64,000 bases of DNA, from the NCBI RefSeq assembly GCF_002896855.1, contig NZ_CP021850.1, positions 2,505,665 to 2,569,664 on the forward strand, written 5' to 3'. A program made the position numbers and the translations under genes. The stretch's first letter is position 1. Each line of letters opens with the position of its first letter. Shown here piece by piece: positions 1 through 38,931 of the stretch. This stretch comes from Clostridium thermosuccinogenes (GTDB taxonomy: Bacteria; Bacillota; Clostridia; Acetivibrionales; DSM-5807). The notes under the pieces were generated by a model. The model worked only from the letters and a program-made list of their open reading frames with translations, made no database searches and was not told where the DNA came from.

Positions 1-1126
1 CAAACCACACCTCATGGTTTGCTCCGTTTTCATCGGTATAGAAGAAGTAGGGAGATTGATATATATAGTTGTACCGGATTTCTGCCCCATACCGCGCTGC
101 GCGTCTTACTGCCTCCTGGGGAGATATGATCTCTGCCCGGGTGACACCCTGTACATAGGGAAGCCTCCAGTCATACCCATATAAAGGCACTCCCATCATT
201 ATTTTATTCCGGGGTATGGCTGTCACCGCATAATCCAGCACTTTCCTCACCTCATTTATCGGAGCAACCGCCCAGGGGCGACCGCCTACCCATCCCCATT
301 CATAGGTCATCAGAATGACAAAATCAACAATACTGCCATGGGCAGGATAATCATGAGCTTCATAAAGGGTTCCGGCCTGGCCGGCGCTTATCTTCGGGGC
401 AAGAGCCGTAGAAACCTTGTAACCTTCCGGACGCAGCCTGTTTACCACACGCCGGAGGAATTGATTATATGCTTCCCGGTCATTGGGATACAGATATTCG
501 AAATCTATGTTCAGACCTCCATATCCTTTCTGCCGCATTATGCTCATAATATTATCCAGCAGACGGTTCTGCACCTGTACGCTGCTCAGTACCGCATGAG
601 CCAGTTCGGAATCAAATCCGTTTTCCCCGAAATTTGTTACTACCATCAGAGGCATTACCCGCTCTCTTCTGGCTGCTTCCAGCACTCCAGCGTCATCCAG
701 CACGTTGAGGTCCCCATTGGGTCTTATGCTGTAACTAAAAGGCGACAAATAGGTAAGAAAATCTCCGGTATAGTTAACAACTTGCGCTCCGGATGCTCCC
801 ATCCTCGTTATATACCCATTAACCTCAGCCGACCTTCTGGGAATCCGCAGCACCTGGCCTACGTATATAAGCGCAGGATTTGTGATCTGATTCGCTTCCG
901 CCAGGGATTGGAGAGAGACGCCGTAGCGTCTTGCTATAGTGTATAAGGACTCACCCCTTTGTACCACATGCGTACCGCTGGGGGTGGGAATAACCAACGC
1001 CTGGCCCACCACAAGCACATTTGGGTTTGAAAGCTGGTTTGCCTGAATTATCTGGTTGACGCTGACCCCATAATATCTGGAAATCTGCCAAAGGGTATCG
1101 CCTCTATTCACAACATGGATTTGCAC
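1..1126 (-). CDS. LysM-LysM-GH18 spore-type cell-wall hydrolase (partial, runs off left edge)
   Basis: The reverse strand encodes two LysM repeats (residues about 2-47 and 50-95, each starting with a VV.RG(D/E)(S/T)L pattern) followed by a glycoside hydrolase 18 barrel. The catalytic stretch reads GGLNIDFEYL, matching the GH18 DGxxIDxE motif with the acid/base Glu present. This is the architecture of the YaaH/SleL family, which binds peptidoglycan through LysM and cleaves cortex muropeptides during germination. A GTG start at 1126 is chosen because GGAGGT lies 6 nt upstream; an ATG at 1132 abuts that ribosome site and is too close. The C-terminus lies outside the window. Role in germination is inferred from the family. 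Confidence 0.88.
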   Translation of the reverse strand, partial: MQIHVVNRGDTLWQISRYYGVSVNQIIQANQLSNPNVLVVGQALVIPTPSGTHVVQRGESLYTIARRYGVSLQSLAEANQITNPALIYVGQVLRIPRRSAEVNGYITRMGASGAQVVNYTGDFLTYLSPFSYSIRPNGDLNVLDDAGVLEAARRERVMPLMVVTNFGENGFDSELAHAVLSSVQVQNRLLDNIMSIMRQKGYGGLNIDFEYLYPNDREAYNQFLRRVVNRLRPEGYKVSTALAPKISAGQAGTLYEAHDYPAHGSIVDFVILMTYEWGWVGGRPWAVAPINEVRKVLDYAVTAIPRNKIMMGVPLYGYDWRLPYVQGVTRAEIISPQEAVRRAARYGAEIRYNYIYQSPYFFYTDENGANHEVWF

Positions 1127-1336
1127 CTGCATACCTCCAAAAATTACTTCATACATTAATTTATTAATTATGCTTCGAATATGTTCTTAATGATTCGTCG
1201 GGGTATGCAAATAGATGCAAGTTAATATTACAGCATAGGTAATATCATATTTGATTGAATCCCTTCGGAACTGCAATTCCTCACTTTAATTATCTGAACT
1301 CAAACCAAATTTAATAAAGTAAAGCAAAAATGTCTG

Positions 1337-1813
1337 TCATTTTGCAAATATAGCCTTTCTGGATTTCTCCAAAAGCAGAATCAAAGGATAACCCAGTCCA
1401 TAGCATGCTACCAGCTCTCCAAAAGCTACCGTTGCCATGCTTATCAAAAGCGGTACCTGATACAGGTAAGTAAGTTCCATTCCGATAATGACACCATTTA
1501 CTATTACCGGAGGCAGAGGCACCAGGTATTTTTTGGGCATCTTATAAGTCATAAATGCAGCAATCAGCGTCGCAGCGCTGCCAAAAATCATGTCTATCGG
1601 TCCCAATCCTCCATAAATATTGGCTATCAGGCAGCCTACAAACAACCCCGGAATAGCTGCCGGTGTGAACATCGGAAGTATTGTCAGAGCCTCTGATACT
1701 CTTATCTGTATCTGGCCGTTTTGCCCAAAACTGATAGGAGCAAATATGATGGTCAAAGCTGCATACATAGCAGCAATAACAGCTGCTTCAGTTATAAATC
1801 TTGTTTTTTTCAA
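1337..1813 (-). CDS. queT: QueT-family queuosine precursor (preQ1/preQ0) ECF transporter S component
   Basis: A 158-residue protein, almost wholly hydrophobic, with about five membrane segments. Landmarks typical of QueT are an N-terminal KTRFITEAAVIAAMYAALT segment, a QIRVSEAL.ILP motif, and PAAIPGLFVGCLIAN followed by GPIDMIFGSAAT. QueT proteins bind a queuosine precursor and work with the ECF energising module, which is not encoded nearby. The TTG start at 1813 is chosen because GGGGGA lies 8 nt upstream; reading to 1903 would add about 30 residues not typical of the family. The preQ1-I aptamer and terminator upstream strongly support the assignment. Confidence 0.88.
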   Translation of the reverse strand: MKKTRFITEAAVIAAMYAALTIIFAPISFGQNGQIQIRVSEALTILPMFTPAAIPGLFVGCLIANIYGGLGPIDMIFGSAATLIAAFMTYKMPKKYLVPLPPVIVNGVIIGMELTYLYQVPLLISMATVAFGELVACYGLGYPLILLLEKSRKAIFAK

Positions 1814-24263: not shown

Positions 24264-26546
24264 TTAATAACTTCTCCTGTATTTTGATGCGAATACGATA
24301 GCCGTGATCAAAAGCGCAAACAATCCGCTAATCACAGCTATGCTGTTTTTGCCGTATTGCATGATATCTCCGGCCGCATTGCTCTGAATACCGCCTCCCC
24401 CATCGGGCGTCCATCCATTTCTAATACCGGGCATTCCCTGTCTGAACCGGCTGCCCATGTCCTGCAGGAATGCTATCTGTTCATCTGTCAGCCCCAGCTC
24501 CGTCAATTGGGCCTTTTGCTCTTCCGTCAGGTTTCCTCCATCCGCACTTCGTATGACCTCCATAGCTTTTTGCATTGTAGCCATATCAGGCATTACCGCG
24601 TTATCACCGAAAAAAAACGCCGGTGCTCCTTGTCCGTTTGCATTACCTGCCCGGTTTGGGCCTCCCACCATGCCACGGCCTCTGCCGCCCATTCCATTTC
24701 CTAAATCGCTTAAATTTAAACCATCAGCTGAAACAAGTGCGCTTGGATTTGCTCTTTGTCCTTCCGTTGTAGAGGGTATTGTTCCCTTGAGCTGACCCAG
24801 GATGCTTTCTGCCCGGAGCTCTCCCAATTTTGTCAAGGCCGGCAATGCCTTTTTATATTCCTCAAAGGTGCAAAAAGCTGTAGGGTTCTTTTCCACATAG
24901 CCTGCAATCAGATTGTCAAGCTGTTCTATCTTGTCCGCCCATTTCCCATCGCTGAAGTACCCGTTTACGATTTCATTCATATACTCATGATACCTGGCTT
25001 TGTACTCTTCATTTTCAAGAAGTTTAGCGAAAAGCGGCCTGTCTTCAAGGAATACACCGCTTACCGGCGTATCGATCGGAAAATTCACAACATCGGAAGC
25101 GCTGCCTGATTGGAATCCTCCAAAGGAAAAGTTGTAATCCCATGGCAAAATAGTAATTTTCCCATTCTTCTCATAGATGTAATAATTTTGAGCCATATTT
25201 GATGAATAACTGTCAAGATTTACCACCACAGTATGAGCTGCCATATAACGCAGAATTTTATCCACATCGAAATAGGTTTCCAATTCTGTTCCGGTGCTTA
25301 AATTTTTGAGCGCTTTGATGACCCTTTGATGGTCCGCTGAAGTTGTTTTCCCGATGGCATTATTAAAGATAGAGGAATAACTGCTCTCATTATCATCGGT
25401 GTATTTAAGGTCTCCTCCGGAGGAACCACGTCCACCCATTCCCCCTCGTCCAAATCTGCCAATATTGCCGTTTTGAGCTTCTGACCTCATATTTGGCATG
25501 CTTTGGTTGGGCATTGCTTGATTTCCCTGTGTGTTTGCATCGCCAGAATGCTGCTGATTTTGTCCCCATCTCCCGTTTCGGATTTGTATGTCCCTGCTGC
25601 CATTATCCTGTGGCAGCCTGACATCATTGCCTGACTGCTGCCCTGCATTATTATCCGGCGGTTGCACACCCCCATTAGCCGATGGCTGCATACCTCCATT
25701 ACCCGACGGCTGCCCCATACCATTATTCGGTGGCATCATGCCTTCATTTTCTGTTGAATCTTTGTTTCCATCACCCGGTGCTTGCATTCCTCCGTCATCC
25801 GATGGCTGCATGCCTCCATTTATCGGTGGCTGCCCGGCGGCATTCCTTGGGGACGGCATACCATCAGGTATATTGGGCATTTGCCCATTGTTTGGCATCC
25901 GGTTGCCATCATTATTGCCCATCTCCATTGATTTAACATTGTACAGGTTTCCTGCCGCATCTCCGTATACTCTGCTTAAATAACTGTCATCATAGGCTTC
26001 TATGGCGAGGTATAAGCCCCATGGTTCGCCATTTACCGATATATTGGCAAAATCATAGAGAGGTGTATCCACTCCGATGTAATTGAAAATATCATAGGAT
26101 AGATACTCTTTCATATAAGAATTGTCGCCCAGCATGTTGTTTACAACAAAGGTGTCAAGGCCAAAACAGGTCTGTCCTTTGATATATTCGTCAAATTTCA
26201 GTCGGAAGCTGAACCTGTCGGTGGTGCTGTCCCGTGCCACCTGAGTAAGACTTGAATTGCCCTTTGGCCGTATGCCGACATTCTGAAATTTCGTACCATT
26301 TATGACCACATCCACCATTATATATTCTTCCGCCATGGCATTTTCAAGCATGGACTCCCACTCGGACTGATCCACAATAATGTCTATATCGATGATGTCA
26401 CCGCCGAACAGCTTGGTCTCATATAATTGTACCGTCCCACTGTTGACAGTTTCAGCGTTGGAAAGGTTTATCAGCAGCAGAGCTGCAATCAGTGCTATAA
26501 TAACTGCAACGGCAGTAATCCAATTTATATATTTACTTTGTATCAA
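24264..26546 (-). CDS. CotH-family kinase, membrane-anchored, with Gly/Pro/Asn-rich insert
   Basis: A 760-residue protein. An N-terminal hydrophobic segment (ITAVAVIIALIAALLLINL) and a C-terminal one (SIAVISGLFALLITAIVFAS, then basic residues) suggest the body is outside the membrane. The CotH kinase fold has VGIRPKGNSSLTQ, RFSFRLKFDEYI, NNMLGDNSYMKEYLSYDIF, GEPWGLYLAIEAYDDSYL, and the catalytic LPWDYNFSFGGFQ. Residues about 215-385 are an inserted low-complexity tract with repeats like GGMQPSxxGG. CotH proteins phosphorylate coat proteins on Ser. TTG start at 26546, GGGAGG 8 nt upstream. Last gene of the operon with DUF4956 and VTC proteins. Confidence 0.88.
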   Translation of the reverse strand: MIQSKYINWITAVAVIIALIAALLLINLSNAETVNSGTVQLYETKLFGGDIIDIDIIVDQSEWESMLENAMAEEYIMVDVVINGTKFQNVGIRPKGNSSLTQVARDSTTDRFSFRLKFDEYIKGQTCFGLDTFVVNNMLGDNSYMKEYLSYDIFNYIGVDTPLYDFANISVNGEPWGLYLAIEAYDDSYLSRVYGDAAGNLYNVKSMEMGNNDGNRMPNNGQMPNIPDGMPSPRNAAGQPPINGGMQPSDDGGMQAPGDGNKDSTENEGMMPPNNGMGQPSGNGGMQPSANGGVQPPDNNAGQQSGNDVRLPQDNGSRDIQIRNGRWGQNQQHSGDANTQGNQAMPNQSMPNMRSEAQNGNIGRFGRGGMGGRGSSGGDLKYTDDNESSYSSIFNNAIGKTTSADHQRVIKALKNLSTGTELETYFDVDKILRYMAAHTVVVNLDSYSSNMAQNYYIYEKNGKITILPWDYNFSFGGFQSGSASDVVNFPIDTPVSGVFLEDRPLFAKLLENEEYKARYHEYMNEIVNGYFSDGKWADKIEQLDNLIAGYVEKNPTAFCTFEEYKKALPALTKLGELRAESILGQLKGTIPSTTEGQRANPSALVSADGLNLSDLGNGMGGRGRGMVGGPNRAGNANGQGAPAFFFGDNAVMPDMATMQKAMEVIRSADGGNLTEEQKAQLTELGLTDEQIAFLQDMGSRFRQGMPGIRNGWTPDGGGGIQSNAAGDIMQYGKNSIAVISGLFALLITAIVFASKYRRSY

Positions 26547-26576
26547 GAATTGCACCTCCCGCCGATTTTTTTTTGG

Positions 26577-27248
26577 TTATTGCATGTATTCGCCGTTATA
26601 GCTTACAAGCACGGCATTTTCCACACCAGCTACCGAAAGGAGTTCGTTGACAACACCTGCGGCCATGTCAGCAAGGCGGACTTCTACTGTCAACTCAATA
26701 CCGTTCCTCGATACCGTTTTAGCTTTGACCATACTCTTTTTGGCCTTTGATTTTATAAGACTTATAGCTTCTGCCTCCGCTTTGTCGTTTTCGCAATTTA
26801 CAACTATCAAATAAGGTGTATCCGTACTTTTTCTGTTTACAAACACGAGCAATATCAACCCAATGAAAACCGTACCGATGACCGCAAGAGGGATAAGTCC
26901 TGCACCGGTCACTATGCCGGCGGAAATTGCCCAAAACAAAAATGCGATGTCAAGAGGCTCTTTAATTGCTGTTCTGAAGCGGACGATGGACAATGCGCCC
27001 ACCATGCCGAGGGACAAGATTATATTTGATGTAACTGCCAGAATGATGAGGGTGGTGATGAGGGTCATCGCCATGAGCGAAACACCAAAAGATGCTGAAT
27101 ACATAACCCCTGAAAAAGTCTTCTTGTAAACAAAAAATATATACAGCCCGATGCAAAAGGCGATCACCATGGCCATCGCCACGTCTAAAAATGAAAAAGA
27201 TACCGCTTTTTCTAAAAAACTGCTTTTAAAAACATCATTGAATGTCAT
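26577..27248 (-). CDS. DUF4956 membrane protein
   Basis: A 223-residue protein with about four membrane segments in its first 150 residues, the family core SLGMVGALSIVRFRTAIKEPLDIAFLFWAISAGIVTGAG, and a C-terminal soluble alpha/beta domain (YLIVVNCENDKAEAEAISLIKS...). The family is named from structure-less alignments and is widely found beside CotH and VTC-domain genes. ATG at 27248 chosen because AGGAGG lies 8 nt upstream; the ATG at 27254 is too close. It lies 30 nt from the CotH start and about 97 nt after the VTC gene. Confidence 0.88.
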   Translation of the reverse strand: MTFNDVFKSSFLEKAVSFSFLDVAMAMVIAFCIGLYIFFVYKKTFSGVMYSASFGVSLMAMTLITTLIILAVTSNIILSLGMVGALSIVRFRTAIKEPLDIAFLFWAISAGIVTGAGLIPLAVIGTVFIGLILLVFVNRKSTDTPYLIVVNCENDKAEAEAISLIKSKAKKSMVKAKTVSRNGIELTVEVRLADMAAGVVNELLSVAGVENAVLVSYNGEYMQ

Positions 27249-27345
27249 GTCCATTTCCTCCTGAACTCATATTTTTCATAAGCTGCTTCAAACCATAAAA
27301 CTGATGATCTGAAAAATCTTGCTCTATAAAATTCTGATCTTTAAA

Positions 27346-28023
27346 TCATAATGCTCTGCATACTGCATATTTTGAAAATGCGGTTGCCTGTCTGCTGTTT
27401 ACTTGTATGGCATCTGCTATCACCCGGGGCAAAAAATCATCGTATTTAACTTCAAAGATAATGATTTTGGATACCTTGCGGCAAGGAAGCTGTGGATTCA
27501 AAAATTGTGCCACGTTGCTGCTGGTCAGTATGTCTTTGTCTATGGTAAGCCTCACATTTCCGGCAGGATACTCAAAGGCACATCGGGTATAATCCACAAT
27601 GCTTTTAGGACGAAGCAGTTGTGTGTGCATTTTGACATAGAGCTCCAAAAACAGCGGATTACTGCTTTCTTTCAAAAACTTCAGGTTTCCGTTCAAAAGC
27701 ATCTGACATTGCTCTTTTGAAATGACTGTGGATTGTTTCAGGCAAAGCCCGCTTCGTTTGCTCTTTTTTTCAAGCCTTATAAAGGAAGTATCGTCATTAT
27801 AATAACGTATGCGGAATTTTTCCCTGTCCTGTACGCCATCAACCTTTTCCCGGAGGGCTTTGTCATACAGGTTGTCAAAGTATAAGCTCCGCACTTTGTA
27901 ACTGCCGTCAGGCGATGCATTTTCATCATATTTTGTGAGATATTTGAGCCTTGAAACCAGTTCCAGATAGTCAAAATAGTTGATATAGTGCTTTATCTCA
28001 TGGCGGAATTTCTGTTCTTTCAA
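27346..28023 (-). CDS. VTC-domain (polyphosphate polymerase-like) protein
   Basis: A 225-residue protein with a tunnel-fold VTC domain: KFRHEIKHYINYFDY at the N-terminus, VRSLYFDN, REKFRIRYYN, IRLEKKSKRSGLC and VDYTRCAFEYP, giving the basic and acidic tunnel residues of the family. Yeast Vtc4 makes polyphosphate from ATP; the bacterial stand-alone forms are largely uncharacterised. TTG start at 28023 with AGGAGG 7 nt upstream. First gene of the operon VTC, DUF4956, CotH. Confidence 0.85.
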   Translation of the reverse strand: MKEQKFRHEIKHYINYFDYLELVSRLKYLTKYDENASPDGSYKVRSLYFDNLYDKALREKVDGVQDREKFRIRYYNDDTSFIRLEKKSKRSGLCLKQSTVISKEQCQMLLNGNLKFLKESSNPLFLELYVKMHTQLLRPKSIVDYTRCAFEYPAGNVRLTIDKDILTSSNVAQFLNPQLPCRKVSKIIIFEVKYDDFLPRVIADAIQVNSRQATAFSKYAVCRAL

Positions 28024-28240
28024 TTTCATCCCTCCTTCTACCATAACGTATAAAGCTCCAAGCTCAATAATTCCATGATATCAGCCTTGCGACCGATAAA
28101 AGCTTTTTATTCTTCACTGGTGTTTTTATGAAATTAATCATACTGTGGCTGTCTGATGTATATTTGTTGTTTATGTGATTATTTGGTGAACATTTCAGAA
28201 AAGCTAGTTTTGATTTGGTATTAAACAAATTTCAGTTAAA

Positions 28241-32940: not shown

Positions 32941-33156
32941 CTAGAAAAATTTATGATTTGCATCATTCTTATCACTTTTCGCATAAGAACTGTTTCTGTC
33001 CATGTTTTTACCTATGATTACACCTGTAAAAATTCCTACAGCGGCAAGCAAAAAAAACAAAGGTTTTTTTGTAGCAGAAAATCCCAATATGGAAAGTATA
33101 CCACCTACTGCGGCTCCTATAAGCATTCCAAGTTCTGAATAACTGTAATCCTTCAC
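32941..33156 (-). CDS. Small membrane protein with glycine-rich helices
   Basis: A 71-residue protein from the GTG at 33156 (AAGGAGAG 7 nt upstream). Two membrane helices: MLIGAAVGGILSILGFS and PLFFLLAAVGIFTGVIIGKNM, both with small-residue spacing as in glycine zippers. The tail is polar. No family recognised; it resembles YtxH-like or small holin-like proteins only in general. Confidence 0.6.
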   Translation of the reverse strand: MKDYSYSELGMLIGAAVGGILSILGFSATKKPLFFLLAAVGIFTGVIIGKNMDRNSSYAKSDKNDANHKFF

Positions 33157-33451
33157 GAAGTATCTCTCCTTCATCTGTTTATATGATACCGGCAGCAAAC
33201 CTTTATAGCAAAATCACAATTGCCATTTAAGTTCAGCTTACTTCGGAAACGTCAAATTTTAACACATAATAACAATAATATAGACGTAATAATTCAATAA
33301 AAGTTTCATAAAATTAAACATAATGCAATCAAATCAGCCAAATTTTACAGAGATAACGTCAAATCGTTTAAATTCACCCTTGGAACTAAAGCAGTTGAAA
33401 TGAAGTTCTCCGGACCTTGTATAGTTCAAAGGGATTTCCCCCTTTGGCCGC

Positions 33452-33512: not shown

Positions 33513-33947
33513 TTATACGGCATTATGCACAAAAGATACAATGGAATCAATCGGTATATCCGCAACAGAGCCAACCGTGTATACCGGATAACCATTCCAT
33601 CCACCGGCAGTAATAGCTCCTACCTTATTTGCAGGAAGCACCAGTCCGCTCGGCCATCCATCATGTCCGCCAAAGGCATATTTCCCTCCATCCCTGTATC
33701 CATAACCTATATCAAAGTTCGTACAAGCATTGCCTAAAGAGCAACCCGGAGGCGGCCCTATTCTGGTCAGAAGTCTCACAAAGCAGGAGTTCACAGCCAG
33801 AATTACACCGGTAAATCCTGATCCTGACTGGCCTCCGCTGGATGTAAATATGGTTACGGTTTCTCCTATATGCTTTGCCAGTAAAGCAGCAAAACTTTCT
33901 TCGGATTTCCTGATATCCTCGCTAGCTAATATGCCGTCTTCTGCCAT
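33513..33947 (-). CDS. Uncharacterised 'IGETVT' family protein (paralogue A)
   Basis: A 144-residue protein. Core: FAALLAKHIGETVTIFTSSGGQSGSGFTGVILAVNSCFVRLLTRIGPPPGCSLGNAC (about residues 19-75), then a Gly/Tyr-rich linker and a second conserved end TVGSVADIPIDSIVSFVHNAV. The core alternates hydrophobic strands as in short Sm-like beta barrels (a strand, GG turn, GxFTGVI strand, VRL strand), but that is inference. No signal peptide. GGGGATGAAAA precedes the ATG. Paralogues lie at 34094-34858 and 35911-36348. Confidence 0.85.
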   Translation of the reverse strand: MAEDGILASEDIRKSEESFAALLAKHIGETVTIFTSSGGQSGSGFTGVILAVNSCFVRLLTRIGPPPGCSLGNACTNFDIGYGYRDGGKYAFGGHDGWPSGLVLPANKVGAITAGGWNGYPVYTVGSVADIPIDSIVSFVHNAV

Positions 33948-34093
33948 TTTTTCATCCCCTTTATACCAAATCGCTTAGACTATTCCTAATACTACAGTAT
34001 TATGTATATCAAAAAAATGTGACATTTACATAAATTAATTATTGTTTATAAGCTTTTTCAGCCGTAAAACGATCGGTTTTTACTTGTATCCAT

Positions 34094-34858
34094 TTAAATC
34101 GGGTTATGTATAAAGGAGACAATTTTTTTAACCGGTATATTTACAATTGACCCTGCTCTACCCAATATGCCGACCGGCGTACTTCTGCCCAAGGTGTACG
34201 GTGCTCTAGCTTTATAATAGCAACGGCAGCAAGCGACCTTGCATACCCTTGCCAATCCGCATGAAGGCACCGGTCCGATTTGTGAAACCAATCGTATGTA
34301 CTCATTCGTTACATTCATAAGAACTCCGGTAAAGCTTCGGCCGGATGCTCCTCCAGCTCTTACAAAAACGGTTACCGTTTCTCCTATATATCGGCGCATG
34401 TGCTTTGCAAACTCAATCCTTGCAGTTTCCATATGCCCTGAAGTATCTATACTTTCCAAGGCTTCCAAATTTCCTGCGGCTTTTGTAGTTTCTATATATC
34501 CTGGAATTACTGAATTTCTTGTAGCTTTTGCTGTCTCAATATATCCCGGAATCACTGTGGCTTTTGCGGTTTCTATGTCTACCGGAATCACCGAAGGTCT
34601 TGCAGCTTCTGCATCTCCCGGATTACGTAAAACTTCACCTTTACTTACTGTAGAAGACTTTATTTTATCCCTGTTTGCACTGATGGTTTTTCTGCTAGCT
34701 GTGTTCAATATCGTATTATTTTTGCTGCCTTCGCTTTTTGCGGCAAATCTTTCGCTGCTTTTTATTCCCTCAGGAAGTTGTGCCGGAATGCCTGTCTTTA
34801 TAATTTTGCTTCTTTTTCTTCTGGCAAAGCCGATACCATACATCCACCATCTTCGCAT
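34094..34858 (-). CDS. Uncharacterised 'IGETVT' family protein with repeat-rich N-terminal extension (paralogue B)
   Basis: A 254-residue protein from the ATG at 34858 (GGGGGG 6 nt upstream); the frame is open to 34957. The N-terminal 150 residues are basic and polar with three imperfect repeats of the form VIPxxIETAKAT. The C-terminal domain is a diverged family core: RRYIGETVTVFVRAGGASGRSFTGVLMNVTNEYIRLVSQIGPVPSCGLARVC, ending NIPVKKIVSFIHNPI. It has extra cysteines (CKVACCRC). Function unknown; perhaps a larger scaffold version of the small paralogues. Confidence 0.8.
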   Translation of the reverse strand: MRRWWMYGIGFARRKRSKIIKTGIPAQLPEGIKSSERFAAKSEGSKNNTILNTASRKTISANRDKIKSSTVSKGEVLRNPGDAEAARPSVIPVDIETAKATVIPGYIETAKATRNSVIPGYIETTKAAGNLEALESIDTSGHMETARIEFAKHMRRYIGETVTVFVRAGGASGRSFTGVLMNVTNEYIRLVSQIGPVPSCGLARVCKVACCRCYYKARAPYTLGRSTPVGILGRAGSIVNIPVKKIVSFIHNPI

Positions 34859-35299
34859 TTGCATCCCCCCACCTATATGAATGCCATCCCAGGGAATATG
34901 AATCCCCCTGCTTTGAGCATAAGCATAAATTCTGTTTGCTCTGGCATATCCCGGCAAGCAGAGCTAAATCCACTTTCCGGCGAAATAAATCCAGTTTGTT
35001 CACAAGTGGAAAATAGTCTTACAGCCACCGGTTCTCTTCAAAGGTTTTATCACTACTTATCAGAATATAAAGATTCTAAGGATTTGTTACCCTGAAAAAG
35101 CTAAGCCTTGCTCCTTTCCACATGTTACTGCAGCAGCATACCTTCCGTTAATATGCTCATTTGACATTTGCTGTTGCTTCCCTACCGCATGCTGTTGCAG
35201 CAGCCTGTTTTATAAACATATTTTGCAGAGAAGATGTAACATAATAAGTTTACAGAACATAGGATATATGGGCATCATATTAAGAAACGGGATGGGATA

Positions 35300-35659
35300 A
35301 TGAACTATAGGGAAATTGAAGAGTTCAAATCTACACTTATGCAAATATTGAAAAAAGGATGCAGAGTAAAAATTGATACCTACGGCATTGATGGGAAGAT
35401 CATTGGAGTAGGCTTCAAGCCTTATTGGACAAATCCTGCCGATTCCAAAATTGACAAAGTGGAATTTGATATATTGTGTGATAACGGAAAAATCATGCCT
35501 TTTTACTTGCAAAACGTGATCGGGTCCCACATCAAAGCTCAGGATGGTAAGGACCTTGGCAGATCCAGGAATCTGTGCTTGGAAATATACACTTACTCAT
35601 TGAGTAGAGCATCAGATTCAGAGCCTTATGACAAACTATCCCTTCTAATATATAAATAG
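35300..35659 (+). CDS. Unknown protein, possible distant Sm-like relative
   Basis: A 119-residue protein. The region ILKKGCRVKIDTYGIDGKIIGVGF, then KIDKVEFDILCDNGKIMPFYLQNVIGSHI, has the strand-turn-strand pattern of a small beta barrel like the flanking paralogues, but I see no clear identity. Ribosome site GGGATGGGATA overlaps a GATG; start ATG at 35300 is probable. Confidence 0.65.
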   Translation: MNYREIEEFKSTLMQILKKGCRVKIDTYGIDGKIIGVGFKPYWTNPADSKIDKVEFDILCDNGKIMPFYLQNVIGSHIKAQDGKDLGRSRNLCLEIYTYSLSRASDSEPYDKLSLLIYK

Positions 35660-35910
35660 AAGCATGAATTTTAAATATTATCGGCTGACGGTATTTCAGA
35701 TATGGCTATAATGAGCTAAATATATCCTAAAATGCGCGCATAAGCTTAACGAAGGAATAACGTCATATTGCCCAAACAGCATCTGACCTCTTTAATACAC
35801 AATCAACCGCCATAATCTGGAATACATAAAATAGTAACATAAAAAATACTGCTGTCATAGTATGTAATGACAAACAACCCATTGCTAATAAAGAAAGGAG
35901 TGGCTATATA

Positions 35911-36348
35911 ATGCCTGATGGAGTATATGGCGGTGCAGGAACATTTTCAGGTGGCAATTTCGCTGCTTTGCTCTCCAATTATATAGGTGAAACGGTAACT
36001 ATATTCACAAGCAGCGGAGGCCAGTCAGGATCAGGTTTTACAGGAGTTATTCTTTCAGTAAACAACGTGTTTGTAAGGCTTATTACCAGAATTGGTCCTC
36101 CTCCGGGATGCTCACTGGGTAATGCTTGCACAGGCTTCAATGTAGGTTATTATCCGTCTTACGGCGGCTGCGGTGATGGCCATGGCGGTTACGGTCATGG
36201 CGGATTTGGTTCCGGTCCTATTGCTCCGGCCAGCGAACTGGGCGCCACAACGGCAGGAGGCTGGAACGGATATCCTGTATATACTGTTGGTTCGGTTACT
36301 GATATACCCATTGCATCGATTGTTTCCTTTGTTCATAATGCAGTATAG
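35911..36348 (+). CDS. Uncharacterised 'IGETVT' family protein with Gly/His-rich linker (paralogue C)
   Basis: A 145-residue protein nearly identical in core to paralogue A: FAALLSNYIGETVTIFTSSGGQSGSGFTGVILSVNNVFVRLITRIGPPPGCSLGNAC and the end TVGSVTDIPIASIVSFVHNAV. The linker reads YPSYGGCGDGHGGYGHGGFGSG, a Gly/His/Cys tract that could bind metal. AAAGGAG precedes the ATG. It is on the opposite strand to A and B. Confidence 0.85.
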   Translation: MPDGVYGGAGTFSGGNFAALLSNYIGETVTIFTSSGGQSGSGFTGVILSVNNVFVRLITRIGPPPGCSLGNACTGFNVGYYPSYGGCGDGHGGYGHGGFGSGPIAPASELGATTAGGWNGYPVYTVGSVTDIPIASIVSFVHNAV

Positions 36349-37925: not shown

Positions 37926-38175
37926 ATTCTTGCTCTGCTGCTAACTATATATATCATAATTATCAGCCGGACATGTCATAAATATAATAGGCTTAAGAAA
38001 CGCTCTTAATACCGTAATTTTTAAATACCATTATTTTGAAATTTGAAAATGCCGCAATTTTACCTCCACAATTTTTCATGAATTTGGGTTTTAGATTAGT
38101 TGTTCACTCCTATATTAATAATTAACTCAAATAAAAAAAGCAGCTCTGAGAAAAATAAATGTGGAGGTGAATAAA

Positions 38176-38931
38176 ATGAATGCAAAATCGCGTTCAATAA
38201 TTGCCATCACAGCCACTGCTGCTACTTTTTTGATCACATTCAGCGCTTGTGCCACTCAGCAGAGAACTACTCCACAAACCACGCGTACCAGGCTCCAGCA
38301 GCAGATGACACCAGGTAAGCTAGGCAACAATATGGATAACAACTTAGGCAACAATGCAACAGGAAATACAGGCATGCGTTTTGATGTAACGCCTGAAACA
38401 AACCGTACCACCACCGGAGCCAATATAGGAACAGGTAACAATAATAACGGCAGAAATGGTAACTTTTTAGGTATGGGCAATAACAACAGGAACGGCAACC
38501 TTCTGGGTATGGACAATAATAACAATGGAAACGGCAATTTCTTAGGCATGGGTAACAATGGCGGCCAGGCTCCGCAAACTACTGCAGGACCTTCTGACAG
38601 AAGCAAAGCTGCAAGCATAAAAAGAGGTCTGGAATCAATGCCGGGAATCAATAATGTGGATGTCGTAGTTATGGGAGATACTGCCGTTGTTTCCTATGGA
38701 CGCAAAAATGGTGCTGACAATGCTAATGTTACAAACCAGACAATAACAAACAGAGTAAAACAGATTGACAATACAATAACAAACGTGTACGTCAGCGATT
38801 CCGCTGATATAGGAAGTCAGATCAGACGTTTGTCCAATGACATGATCAATAACAAGCCATTGGATGAAATTACGAATTCCTTCAATAAGCTGATAAATAA
38901 GATTAACCCTAACACCAATGCACGCAGCTAA
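38176..38931 (+). CDS. YhcN/YlaJ-family sporulation lipoprotein with Asn/Gly repeats
   Basis: A 251-residue protein. A signal peptide with lipobox FSAC (Cys about residue 25) marks a lipoprotein. Residues about 85-135 are low complexity with the repeat NGNFLGMGNNN three times. The C-terminal YhcN/YlaJ domain runs from SKAASIKRGLESMPGINNVDVVVMGDTAVVSYGRK to SFNKLINKINP. The family is found in spore membranes of Bacillus and Clostridium. ATG at 38176 with GGAGGTGA upstream. Confidence 0.85.
   Translation: MNAKSRSIIAITATAATFLITFSACATQQRTTPQTTRTRLQQQMTPGKLGNNMDNNLGNNATGNTGMRFDVTPETNRTTTGANIGTGNNNNGRNGNFLGMGNNNRNGNLLGMDNNNNGNGNFLGMGNNGGQAPQTTAGPSDRSKAASIKRGLESMPGINNVDVVVMGDTAVVSYGRKNGADNANVTNQTITNRVKQIDNTITNVYVSDSADIGSQIRRLSNDMINNKPLDEITNSFNKLINKINPNTNARS

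Follow-up and report, generated by a model that had tools for sequence, protein, structure and literature searches.

Many coat proteins of Bacillus have, to our knowledge, no counterpart in Clostridia, and clostridial coat assembly is poorly understood for this reason. A described spore protein with a ring-forming barrel is GerQ, which forms C9 rings via a continuous antiparallel sheet between the subunits, with rings that stack into filaments (PMC11405398; neither "Hfq" nor "Sm-like" occurs in the text of that paper), and for which recruitment of CwlJ has been reported. The sporulation sigma factors that act in the mother cell can be told apart by their promoters, as the combination of AC at −35 and CATA at −10 belongs to sigma-K rather than to sigma-E (PMC3789822; PMC3416734). 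In C. difficile both factors use a common −10 element, and the −35 element is ATA for sigma-E and AC for sigma-K (PMC3789822); the Bacillus sigma-K consensus is KCACM / GCATANNNTA (PMC3416734). Hence, the individual elements considered below, which are the Sm fold, sigma-K-controlled coat genes, and the GerQ precedent, are already known. Here we analyze a family of small proteins from Clostridium thermosuccinogenes in which these elements appear to be combined.

Three paralogues with a split core

The analyzed DNA is a stretch of 64,000 nucleotides (referred to as the window). Its ORF list contains three frames, A, B, and C, at the positions where an earlier sequence-only reading had placed three paralogues with a common core and a conserved C-terminal end. 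The main genes of the locus are as follows:

33513..33947, minus strand: paralogue A (ORF), 144 aa, pI 5.1; helix and β1–3 core, Gly/Tyr linker, β4–5 C-terminus
34094..34858, minus strand: paralogue B, pI 10.2, 254 aa when counted from the likely ATG; the core follows a basic arm with imperfect VIPGYIETAKAT repeats
34094..34957, minus strand: open frame of B as it extends to a TTG at 34957 (ORF list)
35300..35659, plus strand: D, member of a conserved partner family, 119 aa; a helix and six strands are predicted
35911..36348, plus strand: paralogue C (ORF), 145 aa, pI 5.2; helix and β1–3 core (17–60), Gly/His/Tyr linker, β4–5 (128–142)

In pairwise comparisons, A and C were 73% identical over 136 aa (E 2e-57), and B shared 32–37% identity with A and C (E about 1e-22), with the likeness restricted to two regions, the core and the (D/N)IPxxxIVSF(V/I)HN motif at the C-terminal end. 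The same pattern is retained in the 139 distinct members that we collected; an 87-row alignment was used for structure and composition, and 133 members for the promoter count. A, B, and C are thus paralogues with a split core, as had been proposed, and their similarity is far beyond chance. They are the only three copies of the family in the host genome (4.73 Mb, one contig). Two subtypes were distinguished in the family, the A/C-type with a Gly/Tyr-rich linker and the B-type with a basic M(F/L)FxRRR N-terminus.

The linkers differ in the manner described by the sequence-only reading, being Gly/Tyr-rich in A and a Gly/His/Cys tract in C, with a basic N-terminal arm and extra Cys in B. Across the family, the linker is composed of 23% Gly and 10% Tyr, and two Cys mark its start (C67 in 91% and C73 in 98% of the members). 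Both A and C are acidic; in the 145 aa of C, Lys and Arg together number 2. A metal-binding role had been considered for C and is rejected here, because its His tract is not conserved in the family (His makes up 1.6% of the linker residues over 87 members).

The true start of B is probably the ATG at 34858 (MRRWW...), behind GGTGGGGGG, and is preferred because B orthologues begin with M(F/L)FxRRR. The basic arm that follows contains additional Cys and 36/45-bp DNA repeats, which at positions 34468–34591 of the window encode VIPGYIETAKAT-like units. No such units were seen in the other B-type proteins aligned, and the repeats likely represent a lineage-specific expansion.

Database and literature searches

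Neither A, B, nor C had a Pfam or NCBIfam match above the cut-off, and only the SH3 domain of RimP gave a resemblance, which stayed below threshold. The Pfam models of Hfq, GerQ, and DUF2642 (PF10842) did not match A, B, C or the 87 aligned members, with limits for Spore_GerQ (PF09671) of E < 1 for A, B, and C and E < 0.1 for the 87 members. Neither the host nor 147 Clostridia gave a match to the Spore_GerQ model; B. subtilis GerQ was detected by the same model. No match was obtained in a search of PDB sequences with the family profiles A2 and A3. In the literature search, we found no paper containing the motif strings of the family and no clostridial spore proteome naming it. The family and its partner D are absent from the family libraries and the literature reached, and the description of the family as undescribed holds.

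Predicted fold

AlphaFold2, supplied with the 87-row alignment, predicted a helix (17–22) followed by five strands (28–33, 43–50, 54–59, 128–133, and 137–142), and modeled the linker (63–123) with low confidence. The pLDDT of most core blocks was about 90, and the overall value of 62.8 is due to the linker. In comparisons with VIA-align, the top match of the model was GerQ (8zra_A) with Z 9.3 and rmsd 2.9 over 70 residues; LSm and Hfq came next (Z 8–9.2), among them 6xyj, an E. coli Hfq whose L4 insert is long (Z 9.0). Foldseek alone returned nothing significant for the model of C (best E 0.44). Because the scores of GerQ, LSm, and Hfq are tied and Foldseek is not significant, "Sm-like barrel" is the safe statement. 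At this level the prediction is a confident one, an Sm-like five-strand small barrel, and it agrees with the Sm-like or SH3-like barrel suggested earlier from the core pattern. Profile–profile comparison (hhalign) did not reveal descent of the family from GerQ, Hfq, or RimP; for GerQ the result was not significant, and the probability was about 1% and the pair E 0.05, with a GerQ alignment of only 4 sequences.

Sigma-K-type promoters

The promoter data are the strongest functional evidence for the family. The motif AC-N15-18-CATAnnnT was present upstream of 94 of the 133 members compared with 21 of 546 control ORFs, which were the other ORFs from the same loci (shuffles 5.5/133; Fisher 5e-62; the members are related and the counts are not independent events). 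When similar upstream regions were removed, the motif remained in 57 of 91, with a spacer of N17 in 42 of the 57. The extended consensus was GTAACA...TTAACATAAnATRTA, and its −10 end lies ~47 nt upstream of the start codon. The elements found in the window are:

35834..35863, plus strand: sigma-K-type promoter of C, GTAAC-N17-CATAGTAT, exact strict match
35236..35265, plus strand: sigma-K-type promoter of D, GTAAC-N17-CATAGGAT, exact strict match
33995..34023, minus strand: GTCAC-N14-CATAATAC upstream of A, a weak sigma-K-like element that the strict pattern does not match
35062..35090, minus strand: GTAAC-N16-TATATTCT, possibly a weak sigma-K-like promoter for B; the ATG follows after ~200 nt

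Exact matches to the strict N17 motif occur in the window only before D and C. A search of the whole 4.73-Mb host genome with the extended form gave 8 matches, including the D and C sites, versus 2 matches when the motif is read backwards. The six further sites include one before a YtxC-family gene, one before an asparagine-synthetase-like gene, and one before a Pro/Gly/Gln-rich small protein, and they provide a thin positive control for the sigma-K pattern. These promoter sequences argue firmly for sigma-K control of C and D. For A the case is weaker, because its element is a short-spaced variant (N14, below the usual 16–17). It is not firm for B, as only 1 of 12 B-type genes has the strict motif; in the candidate promoter of B itself, the first −10 position is changed from C to T.

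Two further observations concern these promoters. In the B-type genes of six loci (L014, L020, L024, L029, L061, and L100), a TATGATATAnTA-like element is located downstream of AAC and may be a relaxed sigma-K promoter or that of another sigma factor. Elsewhere in the host (C1:2179519-2179551), a sigma-K-type promoter precedes a 152-aa protein (locus L172, ORF 1011–1469, minus strand of the locus) that has a Pro/Gly/Gln-rich N-terminus and an aromatic, probably β-rich C-terminus, has no Pfam match, and is possibly another unannotated coat protein.

The partner gene D

The sequence-only reading had ascribed a similar strand pattern to a fourth small protein of the locus, D. This likeness stands loosely, but no paralogy is detectable (hhalign probability 0.2%), so that D as a fourth paralogue was rejected and D is treated as a separate family. 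Its model (pLDDT 85) consists of a helix and six strands. Foldseek alone gave no significant match for D, and its best structural match was YojF of B. subtilis (PDB 1NJH, 88 aligned). The Z of 7.5 lies in a range that models lacking a true relative also reach, and no relation of D to YojF was found in sequence.

D is a conserved partner of the family. Relatives of D were present in 24 of 60 order-level genomes, and all 24 also carry the family (P 1.6e-11, a value that ignores relatedness). According to a reading of the coordinates, 16 of 25 D matches adjoin a family member, and the arrangement B(−), D(+), C(+) was found again in several genomes. The sigma-K motif was detected in 13 of 15 distinct D upstream regions. 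D would be co-expressed with C and is a probable assembly partner.

Distribution and genomic context

The family was found in 30 of the 60 order-level relatives, mostly with 2–4 copies per genome, and in 101 stretches of a species-level genome collection. Among the matches listed (80 of 101), all were from Clostridia or other Bacillota, and the carriers included Acetivibrio, Ruminiclostridium, Clostridium, Defluviitalea, Anaerocolumna, and many MAGs. The family is widespread in spore-forming Clostridia. Copies on plasmids and phages were looked for and none were found, and a mobile-element origin was rejected on this basis.

In a class-wide sample, all 11 family-positive genomes contained spoIVA, and none of the 36 genomes lacking spoIVA contained the family (Fisher 0.04). 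The order-level sample cannot test this link, because nearly all of its genomes (56 of 60) are spoIVA-positive; one family-positive relative without a spoIVA match (G037) has 6% contamination. Since half of these order-level relatives lack the family, it is not a universal coat part. The spore-layer role that had been called plausible gains support from the promoter enrichment and from this distribution within spore formers.

A spore lipoprotein gene had also been named as a neighbor. The gene is real, but it is 1.8 kb off and lies behind a PocR/AraC regulator gene:

38161-38931: spore lipoprotein YhcN/YlaJ, profile match E 1.9e-19

Downstream of A, a small glycine-zipper-like membrane protein is encoded at 32941–33198 of the window, with no family above the cut-off. 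Farther away, at 24264–28044, one strand run encodes a 763-aa protein with a CotH kinase domain, together with a membrane protein (DUF4956) and a protein with a VTC domain.

Proposed role and alternative explanations

We consider it likely that A and C, and probably B, are sigma-K-driven mother-cell proteins with a structural role in the spore coat or the outer layers of the spore. RNA polymerase with sigma-K would transcribe C and D in the mother cell at a late stage of sporulation, and A and B would probably be transcribed in the same way. On the model of GerQ, the Sm-like core would most likely self-associate edge to edge into rings or filaments, and the strongly conserved β4–β5 segment (VGSVxDIPIxxIVSFVHNAV) would fit a subunit interface. 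The Gly/Tyr-rich loop that joins strands 3 and 4 is predicted to be disordered and starts at the two conserved Cys; it would project from the assembly and could pack the layer or cross-link oxidatively in the coat. B, which combines the core with a basic arm, may bind the acidic A/C assemblies and link other coat parts to them, and D, made together with C, would join the assembly as a probable partner. Of this picture, the paralogy, the promoter type, the conserved partner gene, and the fold prediction are computational results, and the placement in the coat, the rings, the cross-linking by the loop, and the parts played by B and D are inferred.

Other readings of the same data have to be weighed against structural coat proteins. 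GerQ, the top structural match, is reported to recruit CwlJ, and D is a compact conserved partner, which would suit a sigma-K-driven recruitment platform in the mother cell that serves coat maturation or germination instead of forming bulk coat material. However, several paralogues per genome with Gly/Tyr/Cys-rich loops would suit bulk structural proteins better, and no cwlJ-like cell wall hydrolase was seen near 33513–36348, unlike gerQ, which is adjoined by a cell wall hydrolase on two plasmid records (Priestia/Paenibacillus). A platform of this kind is unlikely in our view. We give still less credence to RNA-binding proteins of the Hfq/LSm kind, whose rings, with a long L4 loop, would act as RNA chaperones in the spore or the mother cell. 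The predicted fold class, with the Hfq (6xyj) and LSm scores given above, and the basic arm of B (pI 10.2) would agree with such proteins, but the β4–β5 turn reads, by eye, DIPI instead of the basic Sm2 signature of Hfq, and the Hfq Pfam model is silent in A, B, C, and the 87 aligned members. Canonical Hfq is encoded elsewhere in all 18 genomes tested, including the host with its single Hfq match (PF17209; G000:C1:2043269-2043457). Given the acidic character of A and C and the separate Hfq of the host, the Hfq-like RNA role suggested by the sequence-only reading is unlikely.

It is very improbable that the link to sporulation is incidental and that a related sigma factor drives A, B, and C for another stationary-phase surface structure. 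The presence of the family in only half of the order-level relatives and the promoters of A and B, which are not clean sigma-K matches, could be read in this way. On the other hand, published data on C. difficile and Bacillus assign the AC / CATA pair to genes expressed late in the mother cell (PMC3789822; PMC3416734), A, C, and D have no apparent secretion signal as judged from their sequences, and the genomes without spoIVA in the class-wide sample (0/36) do not carry the family.

Comparison with known systems

The C-terminal SH3 domain of RimP (DUF150_C, PF17384) matched 24 of the 87 members weakly (best E 2.1e-5). Kinship with RimP was rejected, as hhalign was not significant, the family has no N-terminal RimP domain, and the host genome contains a separate rimP; the weak matches probably reflect a common small-barrel geometry. 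With the Sm/LSm/Hfq superfamily, the family shares the predicted order helix-β1-β2-β3-loop4-β4-β5, but it differs from it by the acidic character of A and C, a very long loop 4, a sporulation promoter, and the absence of a recognizable RNA-binding signature. GerQ (PDB 8ZRA) resembles the family in its Sm-like barrel of a helix and five strands and its association with spores, both of which are predicted for the family, and in a low-complexity region joined to the barrel. This region is N-terminal in GerQ and an internal loop in the family, which also differs by two highly conserved Cys and by a locus without a linked cwlJ-like gene.

It is conceivable, and we propose it tentatively, that Clostridia have a coat system of their own built on the Sm fold, with no relation to GerQ or only a deep one, in which several acidic Sm-like paralogues, whose Gly/Tyr/Cys loops could be cross-linked, the basic B, and D co-assemble into ring or filament layers. 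If this is true, the Sm ring, whose known role is that of an RNA machine, would recur as a building block in spore coats. With its ring-forming type of fold and its sigma-K-type promoters, this widespread and unannotated family offers concrete candidates for the building blocks of the clostridial coat. Taken together with GerQ, it allows a test of whether rings of the Sm type serve, outside RNA biology, as a scaffold in bacterial spore coats in general.
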